Of a DNA stretch of 38,336 nt, positions 842 to 34,433 are shown in pieces. A program made the translations under genes and the position numbers. This DNA is from an uncultured Eubacterium sp. (GTDB lineage Bacteria > Bacillota > Clostridia > Lachnospirales > Lachnospiraceae): assembly GCA_947089855.1 (NCBI GenBank), contig CAMUML010000041.1:1-38336 (forward strand), given 5' to 3'. Positions within the stretch are counted from its first letter, which is position 1, and the number at the start of each line of letters is the position of its first letter. The notes below the pieces were generated by a model. The model ran no database searches. It worked only from the letters and a program-made list of their open reading frames with translations, and was not told the origin of the DNA.

Positions 842-1058
842 AAGCTAATGGTACTATTCACGGGCCAGGAATGCGCATAAACTGCGCATTCCGTGAGAAC
901 ATGATTCAGGAGTGAGGGGCGATTTTGCGAAGCAAACTTCCAATATCGCCCCGAACGGTTACTATGAGCGGCCCCGGCCGTGAATAGTAACTTACTATTC
1001 ACGGGCCAGGAATGCGCATAAACTGCGCATTCCGTGAGAACATGATGCACAAGCTAAT
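842..1058. mobile_element. MITE-like element A: full copy plus truncated tandem copy, bracketed by an 8-bp direct repeat
   Basis: A full element (850-991, GGTACTATTCACGGGCC to GGCCGTGAATAGTAAC) is followed directly by a second copy that stops after about 54 bases (992-1050). The pair is bracketed by AAGCTAAT at 842-849 and 1051-1058, which looks like an 8-bp target duplication. The interior can fold into a hairpin at GGAATGCGCA/TGCGCATTCC and another at GGGGCGAT/ATCGCCCC. No transposase is encoded. It occupies most of the 472-base gap before the transglutaminase gene. Confidence 0.85.
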
Positions 1059-1124
1059 AGGTGCCGCTTGGCTTTGCCCCTGTTTTCCTAACGCCAAAAA
1101 TTTTAGAAAAATCCTAAAAAATAA

Positions 1125-1153
1125 TTGAAATTAAGCTGCCGGCCATATATGAT
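1125..1153 (+). promoter_or_regulatory. Sigma-A-type promoter for the transglutaminase lipoprotein
   Basis: TTGAAA at 1125-1130 and TATGAT at 1148-1153 are separated by 17 bases. The -10 hexamer lies about 65 bases before the ATG at 1219. The rest of the gap between the repeat elements and the gene shows nothing else I can interpret. Confidence 0.7.
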
Positions 1154-1218
1154 AGAAGCTGGCAGTATTTATTTGCAGCAGAAATGCAGCATTTTCTTTG
1201 AGAGAGGGATTGTCAAAT

Positions 1219-2514
1219 ATGGTTTGGTATAGAAAATGGAGAGGAAAGGGAAAAAAGGGGGATTCAACACAGATAAAAAACTGGAAACCGCCAGTGTCCA
1301 GCAGAAGGCTGGCTGCCGGCCTGTGCATTGCCGCATTGGCCAGTGCAATATCGGGCTGCCAGTTCCCAGAGGAATTTGCAGGCATTATTGAACCAGTAGA
1401 GGAAGTCGTAAGCACTGTCCGCCAGAATATGGAATTAAAACAGCAGATGGATGCGTTGGAACTCCCGAAAGACATCCGAAGTATTTCCAAAGGCAGGTAT
1501 GCATATGGGTCACTGTCCAAAGAGGAGCAAAAAATTTATGACCAGATGCTGGATGCTGTCTTAAACCATGATAAGGAAGTTACGCTTTCGACGGCTGAGG
1601 GCGGGCGGCTGGAAGATATTTTTAACTGTATTAAGGCAGATTACGGCGGGCTGTTTTGGGTAGAGAGCTTCCGGTATACACAGTACCAACGGAACGGGGA
1701 AACGGAGATGGTATCTTTCTCGCCCAATTATACAATGGCTGTGGAAGAACGGGAGGCAGTGCAGAAAAAAATAGACAAACGGGCAAAAAAATATTTAAAA
1801 GCCATTCGGCCAGATGCATCCGACTATGAAAAAGTGCGGAATATCTACCGCATGTTGATCCAAAAGGTGGATTATAACCTAAAGGCAGAGAACAACCAGA
1901 ACATTATCAGTGTGTTCCTGGATAGGGAGACGGTCTGCCAGGGGTATGCGAGCGCAATGCAGTACCTGTTGGATCAGCTGGATATACCTTGTGTTATTAT
2001 TACTGGGACTGCAAAAGGGGGGCCGCATGCCTGGAATATGGTGAAACTGGATGGAGAATGGTATTATGTGGATGTCACATGGGGCAATTCCAAATACCAT
2101 GATGAAGAGGAAAACGATGTAAAATATGTAGAATACGATTATTTAAATATAACGACGGAAGAAATGCTGCGTGGGCATAATCCGCAGGTAACGTTTGACC
2201 TGCCGGAATGTACAGCGGTCAAGGATAATTATTTTGTACGAGAGGGGAAATATTTTTCATCGCTGGATGAAGCGTCGGCTGCAAAAATCGGCGCTATTTT
2301 TAAAAAGGCTTTCCAAAAAGGCAAAAAGAATGTTTCGGTAAAATTCAGCAGCAGTGAATTGTGCAGAAAGGCCAAAGAATATTTTTTGACAGAATACCAT
2401 ATCAGCGAGTATTGCGGCGGCCTGGAAACGGTATATTATAAGACGGATATGGAATTGCATATTTTTGTTATTATATTTCCAAATTATACTGTAAATTATA
2501 CTCACGGGCGATAA
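1219..2514 (+). CDS. Exported lipoprotein with transglutaminase-like domain
   Basis: The predicted 431-residue protein has a basic N-terminus, a hydrophobic segment and a lipobox (AISGC, Cys at about residue 45), so it should be lipid-anchored outside the membrane. The central region is a transglutaminase-like (cysteine protease fold) domain: Cys240 in RETVCQGYASAMQYLL, His270 in GGPHAWNMV and Asp285 in WYYVDVTWG form the expected catalytic triad. Family members cut or cross-link peptides; the substrate here is unknown. The C-terminal ~110 residues match nothing I recognise. The start is the ATG at 1219 with GAGGG upstream; a TTG at 1198 in frame is less likely. The last codons run into a repeat element (2497-2576), so the extreme C-terminus may have been altered by that insertion. 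Confidence 0.85.
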   Translation: MVWYRKWRGKGKKGDSTQIKNWKPPVSSRRLAAGLCIAALASAISGCQFPEEFAGIIEPVEEVVSTVRQNMELKQQMDALELPKDIRSISKGRYAYGSLSKEEQKIYDQMLDAVLNHDKEVTLSTAEGGRLEDIFNCIKADYGGLFWVESFRYTQYQRNGETEMVSFSPNYTMAVEEREAVQKKIDKRAKKYLKAIRPDASDYEKVRNIYRMLIQKVDYNLKAENNQNIISVFLDRETVCQGYASAMQYLLDQLDIPCVIITGTAKGGPHAWNMVKLDGEWYYVDVTWGNSKYHDEEENDVKYVEYDYLNITTEEMLRGHNPQVTFDLPECTAVKDNYFVREGKYFSSLDEASAAKIGAIFKKAFQKGKKNVSVKFSSSELCRKAKEYFLTEYHISEYCGGLETVYYKTDMELHIFVIIFPNYTVNYTHGR

Positions 2515-2576
2515 AGTTTGCCACATGATTCAAGATAACAACGCCCGTGAGTCGGCGTTATTTGGCAAACTTTAGT
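2497..2576 (+). repeat. Degenerate ~80-bp 3'-end repeat, copy 1
   Basis: The left end TATACTCACGGGCG and the following TAAAGTTTGCCA are both repeated in inverted form (CGCCCGTGAG at 2542-2551 and TGGCAAACTTTA at 2563-2574), giving two interleaved stem arms. The same order of blocks is found at 23873-23949 (opposite strand) and partly at 29518-29575. It overlaps the last codons and stop of the transglutaminase gene and could serve as its transcript end. Confidence 0.6.
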
Positions 2577-2654
2577 GTTTTTCAGTATAAACTGGTGTGC
2601 AGTATAGATAGCAGCCTGCACTGCCTGTATTTTTGATGGAACAAAACAGGGTAA

Positions 2655-2814
2655 CTGTGGACGTTGCTATTCACGGGCCAGGAATGCGCATAAACTGCGC
2701 ATTCCGTGAGAACATGATTCAGGAGTGAGGGGCGGTTTTGCGAAGCAAACTTCCAATATCGCCCCGAAAGGTTACTATGAGCGGCCCCCAGGCCGTGAAT
2801 AGCAACCTGTGGAC
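2655..2814. mobile_element. MITE-like element A, full copy with 8-bp target duplication
   Basis: The element is 2663-2806 (144 bases), from GTTGCTATTCACGGGCC to GGCCGTGAATAGCAAC. It is flanked by exact CTGTGGAC direct repeats at 2655-2662 and 2807-2814. Both termini carry the same compensating change (GTTGC/GCAAC instead of GTTAC/GTAAC). The interior is nearly identical to the other copies. Confidence 0.9.
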
Positions 2815-2983
2815 AGTTACTTTTCACACCCCAGCCAAAAAGCGGCTGTACTGTAAAAAGTAACGGCATCCGGCCCATTGGAAGTTCGCCTTTGGCGAAG
2901 GGCCGGATGCATGGCAAGCCGCATTCTTTGGCCCAGACCAAGCAGCAGGTGCTTGGTCTGAGTGTGAAAAGTAACTGTGGACA
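2808..2983. mobile_element. MITE-like element B, related ends but different interior, with 8-bp target duplication
   Basis: The element is 2816-2975 (160 bases), starting GTTACTTTTCACAC and ending GTGTGAAAAGTAAC. Exact TGTGGACA repeats lie at 2808-2815 and 2976-2983. The inside folds into three stems: CAGCC/GGCTG, CATCCGGCCC/GGGCCGGATG and CAGACCAAGCA/TGCTTGGTCTG. An internal AAAAGTAAC near 2855-2864 repeats the terminal sequence. Its duplication overlaps that of the neighbouring element A, so one element landed in the target duplication of the other. Confidence 0.85.
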
Positions 2984-3014
2984 GCGGCAATTGTTACTGC
3001 TGTATAAAAAAGTA

Positions 3015-3043
3015 TTTACAAACCGCCTGGAACGTGCTATTAT
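3015..3043 (+). promoter_or_regulatory. Sigma-A-type promoter for degV-GNAT
   Basis: TTTACA at 3015-3020 and TATTAT at 3038-3043 are separated by 17 bases. They lie about 140 bases before the DegV start, just outside the inserted repeat elements. The leader between them shows no structure I recognise. Confidence 0.6.
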
Positions 3044-3183
3044 CATGTAGTAATGAATACTATGTAAAATAATTTGAAATAAGATATAAAGTCGTAAAAT
3101 AGAAGTTTATTTGCGGGCAGGATGTATAAATCAGCCTTTCTGCCGTAAAATACTTAGGGAAATAGCATGTTCAGGAGGAAGTT

Positions 3184-4023
3184 ATGGATTACAAGGTTAT
3201 TGTGGATAGCTGCGGGGAACTTTCAAAGGGGATGAAAGAGGATGGGCATTTTGCATCGGTGCCGTTAGAGCTGGATGTAGATGGCTACCATGTGGTGGAC
3301 GATGAAAGCTTTTGCCAGCTGGAGTTTTTGGAGAAAGTCAGGCGCAGCCCAAATTGCCCGAAATCGGCCTGCCCGTCGCCGCAGCGGTATTATGATGCGT
3401 ACTTATCGGATGCGGAGCATGTGTATGTTGTGACGCTGTCATCGAAATTAAGCGGGTCTTATAATAGTGCGCTTGTGGCAAAACAGATGTTTGAAGCAGA
3501 TTTTCCGCAGAAAAAAATACATGTGTTTGATTCCTGTTCTGCTTCTGTTGGGGAAACGTTGATCGGGCTGAAACTGCAGGAACTGGAAGAAACAGGGCAT
3601 ACGTTTGAGGAAACAGTAACGTTGGCTGGCCAGTATATCGAAAGCCAGCAGACTTTTTTTGTATTGGAAACGCTGGAAACGCTGCGCAAAAATGGGCGGT
3701 TAAGCAATTTAAAGGCATTTGTCGCGGGCGTTTTAAAGATCAAGCCGGTTATGGGGTCGACACCCGATGGGCAGATCTGCCAGCTGGGCCAGGCACAGGG
3801 CATGAATAAGGCGTTGGAGCGTATGGTGAAAGAAATTGCAGAACGTACTACGGATCATAGCCAGAAGCTGCTTGCGATCTCACACTGCAACTGCCCGAAG
3901 CGTGCACAGAAAGTAAAAGAACAGATAGAGAAAGCCATGCATTTTAAACAGATTTTAATCCTGGAAACAGCAGGGGTAAGCAGTATGTATGCGAATGACG
4001 GCGGTATTATTGTTGCTGTGTAA
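3184..4023 (+). CDS. DegV family protein (fatty-acid binding)
   Basis: This 279-residue protein has the DegV fold. It begins with the conserved YKVIVDSCGELS strand-loop, followed by VPLELDVDG, the SACPSPQRYYDAY segment (about 58-72) and VVTLSSKLSGSYNSALVAK (about 83-101). DegV proteins bind a fatty acid in a buried cleft; FakB-type members present it to the kinase FakA for phosphorylation. No fakA is in the window, so the role here is by family only. Length is typical (about 280). AGGAGG at 3173-3178 fixes the ATG at 3184. The GNAT gene follows 35 bases downstream and is probably co-transcribed. Confidence 0.9.
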   Translation: MDYKVIVDSCGELSKGMKEDGHFASVPLELDVDGYHVVDDESFCQLEFLEKVRRSPNCPKSACPSPQRYYDAYLSDAEHVYVVTLSSKLSGSYNSALVAKQMFEADFPQKKIHVFDSCSASVGETLIGLKLQELEETGHTFEETVTLAGQYIESQQTFFVLETLETLRKNGRLSNLKAFVAGVLKIKPVMGSTPDGQICQLGQAQGMNKALERMVKEIAERTTDHSQKLLAISHCNCPKRAQKVKEQIEKAMHFKQILILETAGVSSMYANDGGIIVAV

Positions 4024-4058
4024 AGGTATATTGGGCAATGGCAGCAAAGGGGAAAATA

Positions 4059-4556
4059 ATGTTGGATCAATGCATAGTCAGGGGATATACACCAAAAGAC
4101 ATTCCGGACATGGTTGTAGTCTGGAATGAAGTTGTAGAAGAGGGGATTGCATTTCCCCAGGAAGAATGTTTGGATGAAGTAGGAGGGGCGGCATTTTTTG
4201 CAAGCCAAAGCTACTGTGGGGTAGCACAAAGAATCCAGGATGGAAAAGTGCTGGGATTGTATATCCTGCATCCAAATAATATTGGCCGGTGCGGGCATAT
4301 CTGCAATGCAAGCTATGCGGTCTGCAGGCAGAGCCGTGGGCTGCATATTGGGGAGCAGCTGGTATTGGACTGCATCAGGCAGGCAAAAGAAACCGGATTC
4401 CGGATCCTTCAGTTTAATGCAGTTGTTGCAACAAACTTGCATGCTAGGCATTTGTATGAAAGGGTGGGTTTTAGCCAGCTGGGGACAGTTCCAAAAGGCT
4501 TCCGGTTAAAAAATGGGCAGTATGAGGATATTTGCCCATACTATATTACGTTGTAA
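4059..4556 (+). CDS. GNAT family N-acetyltransferase
   Basis: The 165-residue protein has the Gcn5-related acetyltransferase fold: VRGYTPKDIPDMVVVWNEVVEEG at the N-terminus, the VLGLYILHPNN strand, the acetyl-CoA loop region QSRGLHIGEQLVLDCI (about residues 94-109; the usual Q/RxxGxG/A is RGLHIG), and the NLHARHLYERVGFSQLG signature near the C-terminus. It should transfer acetyl groups to an amine or amino acid; the substrate cannot be told. I start it at the ATG at 4059 because AAAGGGG lies six bases before it. An in-frame ATG at 4038 has no such site. It lies 35 bases after degV. Confidence 0.85.
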   Translation: MLDQCIVRGYTPKDIPDMVVVWNEVVEEGIAFPQEECLDEVGGAAFFASQSYCGVAQRIQDGKVLGLYILHPNNIGRCGHICNASYAVCRQSRGLHIGEQLVLDCIRQAKETGFRILQFNAVVATNLHARHLYERVGFSQLGTVPKGFRLKNGQYEDICPYYITL

Positions 4557-4601
4557 AATTGCGTACAAAGTGTGAATTTTATATGAAATTTGCCTGTCTA
4601 T

Positions 4602-4652
4602 CCAAAAAATCCCGTCTGCTTTGACGGATATATAAAGTAAGGGATTTTTTAT
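4602..4652. terminator. Hairpin terminator after the GNAT gene
   Basis: AAAAAATCCC at 4604-4613 pairs with GGGATTTTTT at 4641-4650, leaving a T run on the rightward transcript and an equivalent run on the other strand. A smaller CCGTC/GACGG hairpin sits in the loop at 4612-4628. Confidence 0.65.
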
Positions 4653-4679
4653 CCATATCTGTAAGTACTTGAGGTTATC

Positions 4680-6896
4680 GTGAAAATGGCAATGGAAAAA
4701 TTTGGAAAAGACAGGAGATTTATGACTATGGAAAGACGGTTAGGTACAGGGCTGCTGGCAGCAGCAATGGCTTGTTTGCTGGGCCTTTTTGGTACGATGT
4801 TTCCGCTGTGCAGGGCGTATGCGCAGGATAGCGGCCAGGCGCAGGTACCGCAGCTGGAAGAGGGTACCTATGTCCAAGGGGAGGCATTGGTATCTATGAC
4901 TACAACGCAGGCGGCTGCGTTGACAAAAGAAGGGGCGGCAAGCTTTGACCGGGATATTCAGGTAGAAGAATGCTGGGATTTTGGCCAGGCGCAGGGGGCG
5001 CAGTCCGGGCAGGTAAAAGATTACGTTGCCTTAGTCAGTTCGGATACTTATACGACACAGGAATTAATGGAAATTGTATCAGAAAAGTACTATGTGGATG
5101 CCGTTGCGCCAAATAGCTATGCACATTTATGCGGAAGCCGGAAGGACCCGCTTTCAGATTACCAATGGTATTTAAATGGTACCGGGGCTTTGGAAACTGG
5201 CAGCAAGGGGATTGGGCTTGCAGGCATGAAAGCAGCGCCTTCTATGCAGCCAGTTGTAGCGTTGATTGATACTGGGGTGGATTATACGCATGAAGATATT
5301 AAGGATTCCATGTGGGTCAACCCTTACCAGTCCGAGGGCCTGGAAGGGGTTTACGGCTATGATTTTGCAAACGAAGATGCTGACCCGATGGATACGCATG
5401 GGCATGGGACGCATTGTGCAGGCGTGATTGCTGCACAGACGGGCAATGGGATTGGGGTTGCTGGTATCAGCAATGCCAAGATTATGGCGTTAAAAGTGGC
5501 AAAGGATGGAAAAGAAACATTTGATACGGCGGGCGTAGTCGCTGCTTTTGAATATGTCGTTCAGGCGCAGCAGCTTGGCGTGCCGGTTGCGGCTGTCAAT
5601 TGCTCCTGGGGCGGCGGCCGTGATACTGGGGCTGTTTTAAATACCTTGATCAATAAAATGGGCAAAAACGGCGCTTTAACCATATTTGCAGCAGGCAACG
5701 ATGCGGTGAATTGGGATGCGGTTTCCTTGCCAAAACGCCAAACGCCATATGATTTGACGAGCAAATATGTCGTAGTCGTAGGCGCCAGTGATGAAAATGA
5801 TGCAAGGGCGTATTTTTCCGATTATGGGAATACGCTGGTCGATCTGTTTGCACCTGGCATGAATATCTTATCTACTGTGCCGGAAGCGAAATTTTTACCG
5901 CAGTTTTGGGAAGAAAGCAAGCGTGCCCGTATGACGGCCTACTACAATACGTTTACGAATATAGACGGGCTATATACGTCTGCACAGATCAGCGGCCTTC
6001 AAAGCGATTATACCGTCAGCCTTAGCTATGAACCAAATGTCGGGTTCCGTGACCAGCCGGACGGCTGCCTGAAATATACCGTAAAACGCAATATGAGGAC
6101 GGCTGCATCGGGGCAGGCGGGCGCTGCCGTATTACATAACGGAAAAGAACAGGCCGGATTTATTTACCTGGATGTAACGCCGCTTGAATTAGATACAAGC
6201 CGTACCTATTATATCAGTGGCCTGATGGCTGAAAATGACGGGGACGGCACGCCGAATTGGGAAACATTCCAAAAAATCAGCAGCGCCGCAGATTCCCGCT
6301 TTGTAACGGCGGGCGGCAGAACCTACCTTGCACTTATCGGGATTAATATGAACAGTACAAAACCGGCCACCTATTATTTTGACAACCTTGCATTGTCGAT
6401 GGAAGACCCGGATACGTCACAGTTTGAAAAATGCGACATCACATCAGGTTCTTCTATGGCAGGCCCGATGGTAACGGCTGCGGCTGCTGTTTTGCGCGGG
6501 GCTAACCCATACCTGGACGCAGCCAGCATCCGTAAACTGCTGATGAAATGTACCAGAAGTGCGGATACCGTTGAAAATGCATGCGTAACCGGCGGGATTT
6601 TGGACCTTTCGGGGGTTGTTATCCAAGCGTCTGGGCTGAAATTAAATAAAACATCGGCAAACGTGCGCTACGGCGCTACCTTGCAGCTGAAAGCGACAGT
6701 ATCGCCTTCCAACGCAACAAATGCAAAAATTAAATGGACCAGCAGCAATACGGATTATGCAACGGTATCATCGAATGGTACCGTTGCCGTAAAAAAAGCA
6801 GGCGTCGGCAAAACCGTAAAAATCACGGCGGTGACAAGGGATGGTACAAAACTAAAGCGGACGTGCAAAGTAAAGATATTAAAAGCAAAAATATAA
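4680..6896 (+). CDS. Secreted subtilisin-like serine protease (S8) with inserted domain and C-terminal Big2 domain
   Basis: Counting from the GTG at 4680, the 738-residue protein has a signal peptide ending near CRAYA. The S8 catalytic residues are Asp197 (VVALIDTGVDYTHED), His242 (HGHGTHCAGVI), Asn340 (IFAAGNDAV, oxyanion hole) and Ser592 (SGSSMAGPM). Asn and Ser are about 250 residues apart, against roughly 65 in classical subtilisin, so some 180 residues (about 400-585) are inserted before the serine motif; this part ends in a beta-rich stretch (TYYFDNLALSMEDP) that looks like a carbohydrate-binding-type sandwich. A bacterial Ig-like Big2 domain (about 650-735, WTSSNTDYATVSSNGTVAV) closes the protein, suggesting cell-surface association. 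The start is uncertain: GAGG precedes the GTG at 4680, and AGGAG precedes an ATG at 4722. A MITE begins nine bases after the stop. Confidence 0.9.
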   Translation: MKMAMEKFGKDRRFMTMERRLGTGLLAAAMACLLGLFGTMFPLCRAYAQDSGQAQVPQLEEGTYVQGEALVSMTTTQAAALTKEGAASFDRDIQVEECWDFGQAQGAQSGQVKDYVALVSSDTYTTQELMEIVSEKYYVDAVAPNSYAHLCGSRKDPLSDYQWYLNGTGALETGSKGIGLAGMKAAPSMQPVVALIDTGVDYTHEDIKDSMWVNPYQSEGLEGVYGYDFANEDADPMDTHGHGTHCAGVIAAQTGNGIGVAGISNAKIMALKVAKDGKETFDTAGVVAAFEYVVQAQQLGVPVAAVNCSWGGGRDTGAVLNTLINKMGKNGALTIFAAGNDAVNWDAVSLPKRQTPYDLTSKYVVVVGASDENDARAYFSDYGNTLVDLFAPGMNILSTVPEAKFLPQFWEESKRARMTAYYNTFTNIDGLYTSAQISGLQSDYTVSLSYEPNVGFRDQPDGCLKYTVKRNMRTAASGQAGAAVLHNGKEQAGFIYLDVTPLELDTSRTYYISGLMAENDGDGTPNWETFQKISSAADSRFVTAGGRTYLALIGINMNSTKPATYYFDNLALSMEDPDTSQFEKCDITSGSSMAGPMVTAAAAVLRGANPYLDAASIRKLLMKCTRSADTVENACVTGGILDLSGVVIQASGLKLNKTSANVRYGATLQLKATVSPSNATNAKIKWTSSNTDYATVSSNGTVAVKKAGVGKTVKITAVTRDGTKLKRTCKVKILKAKI

Positions 6897-7056
6897 AGGC
6901 AAAGGTTACTTTTCACGGCCTGGGGGCCGCTCATAGTAACCATTCGGGGCGATATTGGAAGTTTGCTTCGCAAAATCGCCCCTCACTCCTGAATCATGTC
7001 CTCACGGAATGCGCAGTTTATGCGCATTCCTGGCCCGTGAATAGTAACAGGCAAAG
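6897..7056. mobile_element. MITE-like element A, inverted copy with 8-bp target duplication
   Basis: The element is 6905-7048 (144 bases), opposite in orientation to the other copies: GTTACTTTTCACGGCC at the left, GGCCCGTGAATAGTAAC at the right. Exact AGGCAAAG repeats lie at 6897-6904 and 7049-7056. It fills most of the gap between the protease stop and the DUF1653 gene. It may add folded 3' sequence to the protease mRNA. No coding capacity is likely, although all three copies happen to be open in one frame. Confidence 0.9.
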
Positions 7057-7157
7057 GGCAGCCGGCAACAGCTGCAAGTTATGCTTGTGGATTCAGGCAA
7101 AAATGAATATAATAGACTGTGTTAACATTGATTCTTAAAAGTAAGGAAGTAATGTAA

Positions 7158-8450
7158 ATGGACAGGACACCAAGGCCAGGGGAGCTGTACCGGCATTTTA
7201 AAAATAACCTTTATCAGATCATCACAACTGCAGTCTATACGGAAACAGGCGAACCGCTTGTTATTTACCAGGCGCTGTATGATGATTTCAGTATTTATGC
7301 CAGGCCGCTTTCCCAATTTGTAAGTAAAGTAGACCATCAGAAATATCCGCAGGCCACGCAAGCCTACCAGTTTGAAAAAGTAGCGCCCAGGCAAGCCGTG
7401 CAATGCGTTCCGGGTATGCAGGGCCGGACGCTGGAAACAAAGGCGCCGGATACCCAGGGCCAATACCGGGCAGCGCAAAAACCGCATATGCAAAACCAGA
7501 CATTAGAAGAAAAGGATCCGGATGCGCAAGGCCAGGGCAGTGCAGTGCAGGATCCAGGGATGCAGGGGCCGCAAATCCAGGCCCAGCGCGGGAGGGTGCA
7601 GAGCCTGGATATACGCAAACGGAGGGAAAATGTGCAAAACCTGCATAAAGCGGCACGTATAAGGAGCTTGAAGCGGGAGGAAGAGCTGTGGAGCTTAAAG
7701 CAGACAGCAGATATGCATTCATTGCAGGCCGATGCACTTTCCGATTCCGATAAAGGCCAAACGCCTGCCAGCCTAGGGCAGCCGCACACAGATACTAGCC
7801 AGCCGGTTTTGGATAAATCTGGGACTGGTATCAGCCAAGCAGGCAGTGGCGTAAACCAGCCAGGGCTGGATGGAACAAGTGCTGGCACAGGCCCGAAAGG
7901 GATGGACCATACAAGTGCCGGCGCCAGTCAAGTAGGGATGGACCATATAAGTGCCGGCGCCAGCCAAGTAGCGGTGGATCAAGCAGATACGAATACCGGC
8001 CAGGGCCAGCCAGCTGCGGCTGGACCGCCTGTACCGGCAGCAGGGCAGCGGCCGCGTACCTATAGCCCGGCAGAATCCAGGCGGGCGCTGCGGCAGGATG
8101 AGTCCGAATTATCCGGGCCGGAAGCCGATTATTTAAAAAGGCGCCGTCGGCAGATGGAGGAGCGGGAGCAGCGCAGGGAGCTGTTCCGCAAAAAGGAAAA
8201 GCATGCCAGCGCCACCGAAGAGCTTCAGGCGAACCCAAATCTGATAAAATTTTTGGATACAGATACATATGAAGAGAAATATCGGGTTTTGACGGAAATA
8301 CAAAACGATATAACCGACCGTTTGATTGATGATATTGCAGTCGTATTAGACGTTGTCATCCCCGAAGGGCCGTTAACCGACCGGTTCCATCAGTTAAGGA
8401 ACATTGTGCTGACAAGGCAGAAATACGAAGTCAACCGTTTCCGGCGCTAA
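7158..8450 (+). CDS. DUF1653-type protein with long low-complexity linker
   Basis: The 430-residue protein starts with a DUF1653-like domain (residues about 5-73: [38 protein letters not shown]), usually a stand-alone small protein of unknown function. Residues about 75-300 form a Gln/Gly/Ala-rich, probably disordered linker with irregular repeats, including two near-identical SAGASQV units. The C-terminal 75 residues ([42 protein letters not shown]) look like a helical domain. There is no signal peptide or membrane span, so it is probably cytoplasmic. GTAAGGAAG lies just before the ATG at 7158. Its last four bases overlap the convergent CYTH gene. The linker is compositionally unlike the neighbouring genes and may be expanded by repeat slippage. 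Confidence 0.75.
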
Positions 8451-8926
8451 AACAGCGGTTCCATTATGCGGCCGGTGCGGCTCATTTCGCTGTTATGGTA
8501 ACGTTTATCATAAGTAACGTCCGCACCAAACCATTCTGGCGGCACAAACGCGTCTGCCTGTGCAACCGAAGCAAACTCCACTTCTGCCAGAATGGTCCCT
8601 TTTAAACTGCCTTCAAACAGGTCAAGTTCCACGGTATATGATTGGCCTTGCCCTAACCCTAAAGGGATCATATATCTACGCTTCGTAATCAGGAAGCCAT
8701 CTATTTTCTGGCGCAGATGCATATAGCTTGCTTCGGTAAGCGGCATCTCATATTCTTCATGGGCCAGCATACCCCGGGATTTATAAGTAAGGAAATACGA
8801 TGTATCCATTTTCCGGATACGGACGACAGGGTCGGTACATAGATAGCCTTGTTCAATATCGTGGAACGGGTATTGTTCCAGGTTTTCCGGGATTTGTTTG
8901 AGAATAAATTTTCGTTCGATTTCCAT
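8447..8926 (-). CDS. CYTH domain protein (triphosphatase/adenylate cyclase-like)
   Basis: The 159-residue protein opens with MEIERKFIL, carrying the ExExK signature of CYTH triphosphate tunnel enzymes. Further acidic and basic tunnel strands follow: [47 protein letters not shown]. Members hydrolyse inorganic tripolyphosphate or nucleoside triphosphates using Mg2+ or Mn2+; bacterial stand-alone forms of this length are most often tripolyphosphatases. The substrate cannot be fixed from sequence. GGAGG lies seven bases before the ATG. It is convergent with, and overlaps by four bases, the DUF1653 gene. Confidence 0.88.
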
Positions 8927-9125
8927 GTAGGTTCCTCCTTTATTGTAATGGATAAAAAGAATCTGGTTCTATTTTTCTATTTCTTAATATTTATCAATAA
9001 CACAAAAGGGTTTAAATAACAATAAATGGACTGTTCTTTTATTTTAACAGAACGGCCCCAAATTTTCCAATAAAATAATTCCTCCACTATTTCATCCCTG
9101 CACACCAGTTAAATTTATTATAGCC

Positions 9126-9155
9126 TTTACATGTAATGATAAATTGTGGTATTAT
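9126..9155 (+). promoter_or_regulatory. Promoter for the DJ-1 family gene
   Basis: TTTACA at 9126-9131 and TATTAT at 9150-9155 have an 18-base spacing, about 80 bases before the start. The remaining 8927-9125 is AT-rich and must also hold the promoter of the leftward CYTH gene, but I cannot single one out there. Confidence 0.5.
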
Positions 9156-9231
9156 CAATCATATTCAGTTTAGCCACCCAGTCCGCACGCATAGAAACGG
9201 ATAAGGTGGCCATGCATAAAGGAGGATAAAA

Positions 9232-9786
9232 ATGGGTAAAATAGCAGTTTTTTTTGCAGATGGATGCGAAGAGATTGAAGGTTTGACTGTTATCGATATG
9301 CTGCGCCGGGCAAAAGTAGAGGTTGCCAGCGTATCTATTATGGGGCGCAAGGAAGTTCATGGCTCCCATGGGATTACATTTTTAACAGATAAAGTATTGG
9401 AAGAAACCGCAATAGATGAATTTGATGGGGTAGTCCTGCCAGGCGGGATGCCGGGGACAACAAACCTGGGCGCACACGCAGGCGTCGTGGCAGCGGCAAA
9501 GAAATTTGCAGAAGAAGGCAAACTGGTAGCCGCCATCTGTGCAGCGCCAAGCGTCCTAGGGCAAAATGGTATTTTAAAAGGGCGCCGCGCTACATGCCAC
9601 CCAGGCTGGGAAGGAAAACTGGAAGGTGCCGCCTTTTGCGAAGACAAAGCGGTTACGGACGGCAATATTATTACAAGCCGCGGCATGGGCACCGCAGTGG
9701 ATTTTTCGCTGGCAATTATCAACTGGCTTACGGATGAAGAGACAGTTGCGCACGTGAAACAGGGGATCGTATATGCTGCCTGCTAA
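9232..9786 (+). CDS. DJ-1/PfpI (ThiJ) family protein
   Basis: The 184-residue protein is a full-length DJ-1 superfamily member: MGKIAVFFADGCEEIEGLTVIDMLRRA at the N-terminus with the conserved glutamate in the EEIE segment, VVLPGGMPGTTNL (about 66-78), and the nucleophile-elbow cysteine, Cys103, in AAICAAPSVLG. The ITSRGMGTAVDFSLAII segment is characteristic of the bacterial YajL/DJ-1 branch. Such proteins are implicated in glyoxal/methylglyoxal detoxification, deglycation or oxidative-stress protection, with the activity disputed. Cytoplasmic. AAAGGAGG about seven bases upstream fixes the start. A MITE lies 28 bases after the stop. Confidence 0.92.
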   Translation: MGKIAVFFADGCEEIEGLTVIDMLRRAKVEVASVSIMGRKEVHGSHGITFLTDKVLEETAIDEFDGVVLPGGMPGTTNLGAHAGVVAAAKKFAEEGKLVAAICAAPSVLGQNGILKGRRATCHPGWEGKLEGAAFCEDKAVTDGNIITSRGMGTAVDFSLAIINWLTDEETVAHVKQGIVYAAC

Positions 9787-9806
9787 AAAGTTTTCAAAAA
9801 GCTCTG

Positions 9807-9966
9807 CAGGGCTGGTTACGGTTCACGGGCCAGGAATGCGCATAAACTGCGCATTCCGTGAGGACATGATTCAGGAGTGAGGGGCGATTTTGCGAAGCAA
9901 ACTTCCAATATCGCCCCGAATGGTTACTATGAGCGGCCTCCAGGCCGTGAATAGTAACCAGCGCTG
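9807..9966. mobile_element. MITE-like element A, full copy with imperfect 8-bp target duplication
   Basis: The element is 9815-9958 (144 bases), GTTACGGTTCACGGGCC to GGCCGTGAATAGTAAC. The flanks are CAGGGCTG (9807-9814) and CAGCGCTG (9959-9966), seven of eight identical. It sits between the DJ-1 gene and the promoter of the choline-binding-like gene. Confidence 0.88.
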
Positions 9967-32913: not shown

Positions 32914-33268
32914 TTCAACAGAAATTTTTTTGTGAATGGTGATACAGATTATGCTTTGTCTGTGTCTGAAGCCTTCTGCGAAGGCTTTTAGGGAAATGCT
33001 TTTGGAAGGGCCGGTTGCCATACAGATGAGCGGTTACGGGGATATGGAAAAAGTCGGGCCGCTGGGAAAAAGCCTGCCGGCAAATGATGAAAGTATTACG
33101 GCTGGCCCTGGAGGCCTGATTCTTTATCAGGGCAATTCACCGGTCATTTACTATGATACGAATACATGGAATTTTATAAGGCTTGGGAAAATTGATGGTG
33201 TTACAGGACAGGAGCTTCTTGCAGCTTTTGGGAGAGGTGATGTAACGGTCACATTGTCGCTTTCGTAA
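32914..33268 (+). pseudogene. Cyclophilin-like domain gene, truncated and frameshifted
   Basis: The main frame encodes PSAKAFREMLLEGPVAIQMS, then GYGDMEKVGPLGKSLP, LILYQGNSPVIYYDT and NFIRLGKIDGVT, ending VTVTLSLS. This matches the small cyclophilin-like domain (PF18050 type) often found as secreted lipoproteins in gut Firmicutes. The expected first strand, VNGDTDYALSVSE, is present but in the other frame (32932-32970), so about one base has been lost near 32970-32975. No signal peptide, lipobox or ribosome binding site precedes it. The gap 32766-32913 is AT-rich with nothing I can interpret. Its stop codon abuts a long palindrome. Confidence 0.68.
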
Positions 33269-33424
33269 GGATTCTTAAAGAAATAACGTGACATATTGCT
33301 TGTCTTTTTCTCCGATAGCACAAGGCAAAAATTAGTTACATAGCCCGCTATGCGCCTAATTTTTGCCTTGCACTCTCGAAGAAAAATCCTGCGCAATCTT
33401 GTCACGTTATTTCTTTAAGAATCC
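33269..33424. repeat. 156-bp palindromic element
   Basis: The outer 24 bases at each end (33269-33292, 33401-33424; starting GGATTCTTAAAG) are perfectly complementary. An inner stem CAAGGCAAAAATTAG/CTAATTTTTGCCTTG and partial pairing between them make the whole unit one long hairpin. It is flanked by TAA on both sides (33266-33268, the stop of the cyclophilin remnant, and 33425-33427), compatible with a 2-3 bp target duplication. It may be a non-autonomous mobile palindrome and a strong transcript end. Confidence 0.75.
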
Positions 33425-33448
33425 TAAGTAAATCAGGAAAGGCATGGT

Positions 33449-34365: not shown

Positions 34366-34433
34366 AAGGCAGTATCTGTGTAACATATTGCAGTTGAAGA
34401 AGGCAGTATCTGTGTAACATATTGCAGTTGAAG
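34366..34433 (+). repeat. Two exact tandem copies of a 34-bp unit
   Basis: The unit starts AAGGCAGTATCTGTGTAACA and is repeated without change at 34366-34399 and 34400-34433. It lies between the permease stop and the DUF362 start. With only two copies and no spacers it is a simple duplication, recent because the copies are identical. Confidence 0.9.

Follow-up and report, generated by a model that had tools for sequence, protein, structure and literature searches.

Known related systems

Bacterial miniature inverted-repeat transposable elements (MITEs) are described in a review as intergenic elements of 50-500 bp with inverted ends and direct repeats, which carry no transposase and are moved in trans; their transcripts form stable hairpins (PMC10969869). 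The repeats analysed here were detected in a 38,336-nt stretch of DNA from an uncultured Eubacterium sp. (hereafter the window; contig C41 of the 4.08-Mb draft genome G000, 89.7% complete). They are similar to bacterial MITEs in size, ends, direct repeats, intergenic sites and absence of a transposase, and differ from general MITEs in that most of their families have in common a core whose pairing is maintained by compensatory changes and which was detected in 51 of the 334 genera sampled. In its main text, the review uses none of the words IS66, Clostridi and Lachnospir. The ends of Pseudomonas IS66 elements are given in a 2026 paper as GTAAGCGTCCGG and GTAACCGTCCGGGCA, beginning with GTAA (PMC12888890). 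Our elements resemble the IS66 insertion sequences (IS) by duplications of 8 bp at some loci and by ends beginning with GT(A/T)AC; they differ by the absence of a transposase open reading frame (ORF), by a length of about 50-270 bp and by an interior that is not IS66 sequence. The BOX and RUP repeats of Streptococcus pneumoniae are also short, dispersed, intergenic and structured, with other ends and in another host group, and we know of no link between them and IS66. No description of the present elements was found in the literature searched, which covered few subscription journals and included the accessible parts of PMC13001229, PMC8632094 and PMC3189936.

The repeats belong to the known class of the MITEs, within which they would form an IS66-type superfamily whose families mostly carry a conserved, structured core. 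We consider it likely, from the comparison of sequences, that the repeats are IS66-type MITEs mobilised in trans by an IS66-family transposase (TnpC) with 8-bp duplications.

Elements of the window

The window contains four copies of a 144-bp element and one 160-bp relative. As claimed in the first-pass annotation of this DNA, three of these copies (starting at 2663, 6905 and 9815) are nearly identical, with 94-97% identity in pairwise comparison, and are flanked by 8-mers conserved at 8/8, 8/8 and 7/8 positions, respectively. The elements and their flanks are the following.

842..849, no strand: left 8-bp target duplication AAGCTAAT of a composite element; the same 8-mer is found again at 1051-1058
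850..991, + strand: full family-A copy of 142 bp, starting with GGTACT, first unit of the tandem composite; core match at 864-952
992..1050, + strand: partial second copy in tandem (left ~57 bp), ending just before the second AAGCTAAT
1051..1058, no strand: right target duplication AAGCTAAT of the composite
2655..2662, no strand: left target duplication CTGTGGAC
2663..2806, + strand: 144-bp family-A element with ends GTTGCTATTCACGG
2677..2765, + strand: structured core, composed of hairpin 1, a linker and hairpin 2 with a 3' bulge (covariance model R2, 76.5 bits)
2771..2806, + strand: right-end hairpin, where an internal inverted end copy (GTTACTAT) pairs with the right end (helix 129-143/178-192, alignment A1)
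2807..2814, no strand: right target duplication CTGTGGAC
2816..2975, - strand: 160-bp family-C element with ends GTTACTTTTCACACCC / GTTACTTTTCACACTC; target duplication TGTGGACA (8/8)
6897..6904, no strand: left target duplication AGGCAAAG
6905..7048, - strand: 144-bp family-A element, inverted
7049..7056, no strand: right target duplication AGGCAAAG
9815..9958, + strand: 144-bp family-A element with flanks CAGGGCTG/CAGCGCTG (7/8)

The copy at 850-991, listed in the first-pass annotation as a full copy, is present as the first unit of a 201-bp tandem composite (850-1050), since its left flank AAGCTAAT recurs beyond the partial second copy. A weak match of the covariance model (1005-1082) is located at this partial copy. 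The 160-bp element at 2816-2975 had been overlooked. The core of this element lies at 2865-2963 on the - strand (89.8 bits with R2), and its target site shares bases with the one that the adjoining 2663-2806 copy has duplicated. The first-pass annotation contained neither the composite nor this fifth element, and neither the further size families, nor the link with IS66, nor the covarying core. Its intergenic placing of the copies agrees with our reading by eye, where they sit between plausible genes. A 154-codon open frame at 2582-3046 on the - strand crosses two MITEs and is a probable false gene call.

Target duplications and empty site in the source genome

The 144-bp query has at least 42 matches in G000 (best 40 of 210 candidates scored). 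The end sequence GTTACTNTTCAC is present 311 times in the 4.08 Mb of this genome (155 + 156), against 1 + 0 for the reversed control pattern. The genome-wide search proposed in the first-pass annotation gave, among the 30 listed loci of 144 bp, a target duplication of 8/8 in 23 cases and of 7/8 in one. We also analysed a sample of 815,852 bases composed of 11 segments, window included, from the contigs C1-C7; these segments were picked partly because matches had been listed there. The sample contains 64 inverted end pairs spaced by 30-450 bp, 30 of them with a duplication of at least 7/8 (24 perfect, 6 at 7/8). Each of the 20 shuffled-end controls gave 0-3 pairs and no element with a duplication of at least 7/8.

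A nested case of 327 bp consists of a 144-bp element inserted into a 175-bp element. After removal of the insert and of one TTGACAAA, the host measures 175 bp and displays 4, 5, 5, 4 and 10 mismatches with five intact copies. Because the emptied host matches the intact copies, the 144-bp element has duplicated its target. This comparison with an empty site inside the same genome, together with the genome-wide duplications, upholds the earlier assignment to MITEs with 8-bp target duplications, and both the mobility of the repeats and the 8-bp duplication are evident from the sequences aligned.

The high local density that had been pointed out is less firmly established. When 30 elements were placed randomly in 816 kb, a 9.2-kb stretch with at least four elements, the observed number, was obtained in 188 of 2000 trials. 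With the composite counted as a fifth element, five were reached in 11 of 2000 trials; this is weak evidence, since the composites elsewhere were uncounted and the window was chosen for its density. The evidence for a local clustering of elements is weak.

Size families and minimal mobile units

The 30 sampled elements have sizes of 144 bp (14 elements), 175 bp (5), 160 bp (3) and 143 bp (2), and there are single elements of 145, 206, 266, 327, 63 and 64 bp. As in MITEs, the families of 143-175 bp have terminal inverted ends of 12-16 bp and contain no transposase. The pairing of an internal repeat with the right end, already described for the 144-bp element, corresponds to the right-end hairpin at 2771-2806. 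In the 175-bp family, an internal GTTACTATTTACAGC located 64 bp from the right end pairs with that end. The 63- and 64-bp elements correspond to this right-end segment alone and have perfect duplications, and a 50-bp equivalent, also with a perfect duplication, is found in the relative G007. Since these three short units carry duplications, the internal end copy can serve as a left end. The second inverted end copy makes of the last 36-64 bp a minimal two-ended unit, which can move alone, as the 50-, 63- and 64-bp elements indicate.

IS66-type transposases between the same ends

Of the 61 genomes searched, nine contain the exact sequence GTTACTATTCACGG; these nine belong to a single genus, and the 48 genomes outside this genus gave no occurrence. 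The end GTTACTNTTCAC is present in all 13 genomes of the genus; the genome G012 has 256 occurrences, and only 2-5 matches are found in G003, G005, G010 and G011, where the controls gave 1-3. Two longer units were found between such ends, L166 and L165. The unit L166 (2314 bp) contains an IS66-type TnpC of 575 amino acids, is bordered by the ends GTTACTTTTCACACCCACGCCAG and shows a target duplication with a one-base slip. Its TnpC is recognized by the Pfam model DDE_Tnp_IS66 (5.1e-11, 43 bits for a cut-off of 23.1) and matches the NCBIfam model IS66 (8.7e-35) at a score below the cut-off of that model.

In 31 loci of L166-type transposases, inverted GTTAC-type ends (at most one mismatch allowed) are located on both sides in 22 cases, on one side in 8 and on neither in one. 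Among the 20 end pairs clear of contig ends, the duplication is of 8/8 in the six given below; in addition, L267, the contig of L166, shows 8/8 with a one-base slip.

L251: target duplication GCCGGAAT
L257: target duplication CAAAGCCC, ends GTTACCATTCACGGGG
L260: target duplication GTATTAGA
L272: target duplication CTATTCTT
L274: target duplication AACATACA
L275: target duplication GATAGATG

The locus L284 displays paired ends with a 7/8 duplication, these ends not being GTTAC. The canonical IS66 elements of G004 end in GTAACTGTTCAG / GTAACTATTCAG, and their duplications are of 8/8 in 8 loci, 7/8 in two and less in two (12 loci, from 15 matches). Fragments of L166-type transposase adjoin the same end (with at most one mismatch) in the genomes G007, G008 and G010, and in Lachnospiraceae bacterium A4 an L166-type element with 586 open codons lies beside a 144-type MITE. 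The outer 12-15 bases are common to the ends of IS66 elements and MITEs, the full inner repeat is not. These alignments indicate that IS66-type elements of related bacteria have the same outer end type as the repeats, some of them with 8-bp duplications. The transposase with matching ends, for which the first-pass annotation had suggested a search, is represented by IS66-type candidates in other genomes, and by fragments only in G000: a 66-residue fragment with a stop at C21 and other pieces without these ends. The IS66 pieces at C3 and C16 were rejected as partners, no such ends being found within the loci examined.

IS4-family elements in IS66-type ends

The unit L165 (L165:1491-3313, genome G004) measures 1823 bp and encodes a 450-amino-acid transposase of the IS4 family (NCBIfam IS4, 140 bits for a cut-off of 115), which we take to be IS231-like. 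Its ends of 33 bp are GTTACTGTTCACACCCAATGTCATTTACTTAA(A)G, and its target duplication AATTTCTG is of 8/8. An IS4-family transposase of this type could be the enzyme that moves the repeats, as L165 combines GTTAC-type outer ends, an 8-bp duplication and a score above the cut-off. In L165, as in L232 (G103, duplication 7/8) and L222 (G337, no duplication), IS66-type ends are present outside the CAATGTC motif on both sides, and similar two-sided ends border two 313-bp MITEs, L169 (8/8) and L168 (7/8). Several observations speak against such a mover. Own ends, CAATGTCATT... or closely similar, with duplications of 9-12 bp were observed at 15 of the 29 loci of the L165 transposase and its relatives; five of these 15 (L224, L227, L229, L230 and L234) are insertions into one IS66-type end. 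In G000, two 144-bp elements are interrupted at an identical position by a 113-bp CAATGTC element, once in each orientation. Both insertions duplicate the 9-bp ATTCACGGG, the outer 8-mers being different (TATACCCC and AGCCTTGT), and once the insert is removed, the two elements measure 144 bp and show 7 and 4 mismatches against the 2663-2806 copy of the window. A remnant of an IS4-family transposase is found at the same insertion point in C93. With these data, we judge it unlikely that an L165-type transposase moves the repeats.

Because the CAATGTC elements have their own ends and insert into IS66-type ends, we interpret the GTTAC part of L165 as an IS66-type end that was captured and now lies outside the IS4 ends. 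Recombination may have taken place between IS4 copies inserted in the two ends of a single MITE, and the chimera may then have been moved by the IS66-type ends. The hypothesis that CAATGTC belongs to the repeat of the partner was rejected on the basis of the IS4 loci and the 113-bp insertions.

In all, IS4-family elements or the 113-bp derivative were observed inside IS66-type ends at L101:13704-13969, L049:1501-1766, L137 (G000:C93), L224, L227, L229, L230 and L234. These insertions, with duplications of 9-10 bp and an identical point used twice, represent a hot spot in the end of another transposon. The elements L165, L232, L222, L168 and L169 look like an IS4 element captured between IS66 ends. 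The CAATGTC elements are comparable to IS231A, an IS4-family element that reportedly inserts with preference into the ends of Tn4430, in its terminal repeats; they differ from it by their targets, which are IS66-type ends, and by the existence of two-sided chimeras.

The structured core

The hairpin-rich interior claimed in the first-pass annotation is in agreement with the RNA folding z-scores, which are -8.4 (+ strand) and -6.8 (- strand) for the 2663-2806 copy and -6.3 for the 6905 copy. In an alignment of 24 elements of eight types, the sequences of the stems differ and the pairing is retained. The plain MAFFT alignment A3 (10 elements, four types) comprises 27 pairs, for which 98.5% of the cells are paired, against 82.8% in shuffled and 22-43% in slid controls, with changes on both sides in 15 of the 27 pairs. 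From 99 matches (91 distinct rows), changes on both sides are observed in 25 of the 27 pairs and 97.0% of the cells are paired (69.7% when shuffled), in an alignment fitted to the covariance model, which favours the model. The alignments A4 and A5 are model-fitted, A5 taking in a few truncated matches; one further shuffle control kept the stem boundaries un-re-optimised and was set aside. The inner stem of hairpin 2 is close to TTYGC(C)/(G)GCRAA, and its 3' bulge of ~8 bases is often CTTTCAAT or similar. Applied to 66 sources, a first covariance model gave 46 matches at E <= 0.01, which cover the types A, C, D, E, F, G and H; the 175-bp type B was missed. Rfam gave no match in the window at the gathering score and, with a relaxed threshold, one chance-level match in 2600-3000 (E 2, 17.8 bits for a gathering score of 55). 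The aligned copies indicate that most size families share a hairpin core under strong pairing constraint. G-U pairs outnumber A-C mismatches by 46 to 12 in the 91 distinct copies, which suggests that one strand is folded; when the copies are grouped into 51 clusters at 85% identity, the ratio is only 19:9 (p 0.09).

Distribution and gene context of the core

Of the 397 genomes sampled from the family, 59 (51 of the 334 genera) contain a match to the model R2 at E <= 1e-4; the counts per genome come from the best 10 candidates, a number reached by 13 of the 59 genomes. Outside the genus, 13 of 26 loci show the core between inverted GTAAC/GTTAC-type ends with a duplication of at least 7/8 (9 perfect), against 0 of 2443 decoy positions with such ends and duplication. 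From these 13 loci, the core and the end type tend to travel together, the end sequence varying. Two loci, L346 and L357, have the same difference between left and right ends (GTAACTGTTCAG / GTAACTATTCAG) as the IS66 elements of G004.

The gene context was analysed for 30 of the 41 core matches of G000 with simple ORF calling: 26 are intergenic, one has no neighbour and three lie within ORFs that seem to be spurious, since these run across the repeats. The 26 classed matches are divided among 16 tandem gaps, 10 divergent gaps and no convergent gap; the 342 background gaps comprise 230 tandem, 59 divergent and 53 convergent ones. The matches are therefore in excess in divergent gaps (10/26 vs 59/342) and absent from convergent gaps (0/26 vs 53/342). 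No preferred gene strand was found among the 16 tandem contexts (8 same strand, 8 opposite). This balance and the lack of convergent gaps speak against a common role in mRNA tails. Since the insertions have no preferred strand, the core more likely serves the element itself than the neighbouring genes, and it could act as RNA or as folded single-stranded DNA.

The strong fold, the covariation of pairs, the 46 to 12 ratio favouring one strand and the proportion of divergent gaps would also suit a dispersed structured RNA or regulatory hairpin spread by recombination instead of transposition. This spread is already contradicted by the 8-bp target duplications at exact boundaries, the nested insertion and the empty site; moreover, no strand is preferred, convergent gaps are avoided and the G-U excess is reduced to 19:9 among the clusters. 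We regard this explanation as very improbable.

Assessment of the proposed IS66 mechanism

In the mechanism that we favour, an IS66-family TnpC made elsewhere would recognize the 12-16-bp ends of the MITEs and insert them in trans via an 8-bp staggered cut, leaving the 8-bp target duplications. The source of this TnpC would have been lost from G000, or would be unassembled in it.

Several results weigh against this mechanism. G000, at 89.7% completeness, yielded no intact IS66-type element from the matching subgroup. The NCBIfam IS66 score of the L166 TnpC is 120.5 for a model cut-off of 180. Of the 20 testable L166-type end pairs, 13 have no duplication of at least 7/8 (at most 6/8), perhaps because of age or of joins made in metagenome assembly. 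Six of the 30 listed 144-bp copies are without a duplication of 7/8; L019 is explained by an inserted element, L017 shows a one-base shift, and four are unexplained. The IS4-family unit L165 too has outer GTTACTGTTCACACC ends and an 8/8 target duplication. The core does not come from the interior of IS66, with one match in 43 IS66 and related loci, located outside the IS; therefore, the elements are not simple deletion derivatives. Finally, the 175-bp type B scores only 19-23 bits with R2 (E 0.004-0.04 in 80 kb); these weak matches fall at the expected places, and the evidence for a kinship of type B with the core is weaker.

Other transposase families also make 8-bp duplications, and the intact partner was not seen in the own, incomplete genome, so that an unrelated and unseen DDE transposase could move the repeats. 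In G000, IS256-type transposases have no match and DDE_Tnp_1 has three (two IS1634-type, one broken IS4-type), none of which fits as a partner, many further families being unsearched. We hold such a transposase to be quite unlikely.

Two other kinds of candidates were discarded. The IS1634 transposase of C82, which has GTTACTATTCACGGGCAATGTC upstream, is a neighbour only, as shown by an inverted repeat of its own, TTTGACAGTT (by eye), and by the long direct repeats on its flanks. The host genes beside solo ends, one of them presumably recX-like, were rejected because these ends are truncated copies. The C82 loci L135 and L136 are tandem IS1634-family copies (575 amino acids, NCBIfam 362.5 bits, period of 2136 bases) with flanking direct repeats of ~190 bp (by eye).

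Other repeats of the window

Positions 2498-2580, downstream of the ORF at 1198-2514, contain a separate inverted repeat, CTCACGGGCGATAAAGTTTGCCA...CAACGCCCGTGAG. A sequence resembling it is found near C3:33353, and both may represent a second repeat family. Further inverted repeats are present at 33261-33432 and 34366-34433, where the arms measure 33 and 40 nt; close to them, 34 bp are perfectly duplicated in tandem.

Significance

From one local repeat, the analysis leads to a dispersed class of elements for which the likely transposase family is named. It is possible, although we put it forward tentatively, that IS66-dependent elements occur throughout the family, that their core must fold, as RNA or single-stranded DNA, for spread or persistence, that the third, inverted end defines a minimal mobile unit inside each element, and that the payload is a structure and not a gene. 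For annotation, such repeats can create spurious ORFs, as at 2582-3046 of the window, and the model R2, which detects most size families and the 175-bp family weakly, may help annotators. A constraint on structure is not expected of a passive deletion derivative, and the question of what the hairpin of a MITE does becomes directly testable.

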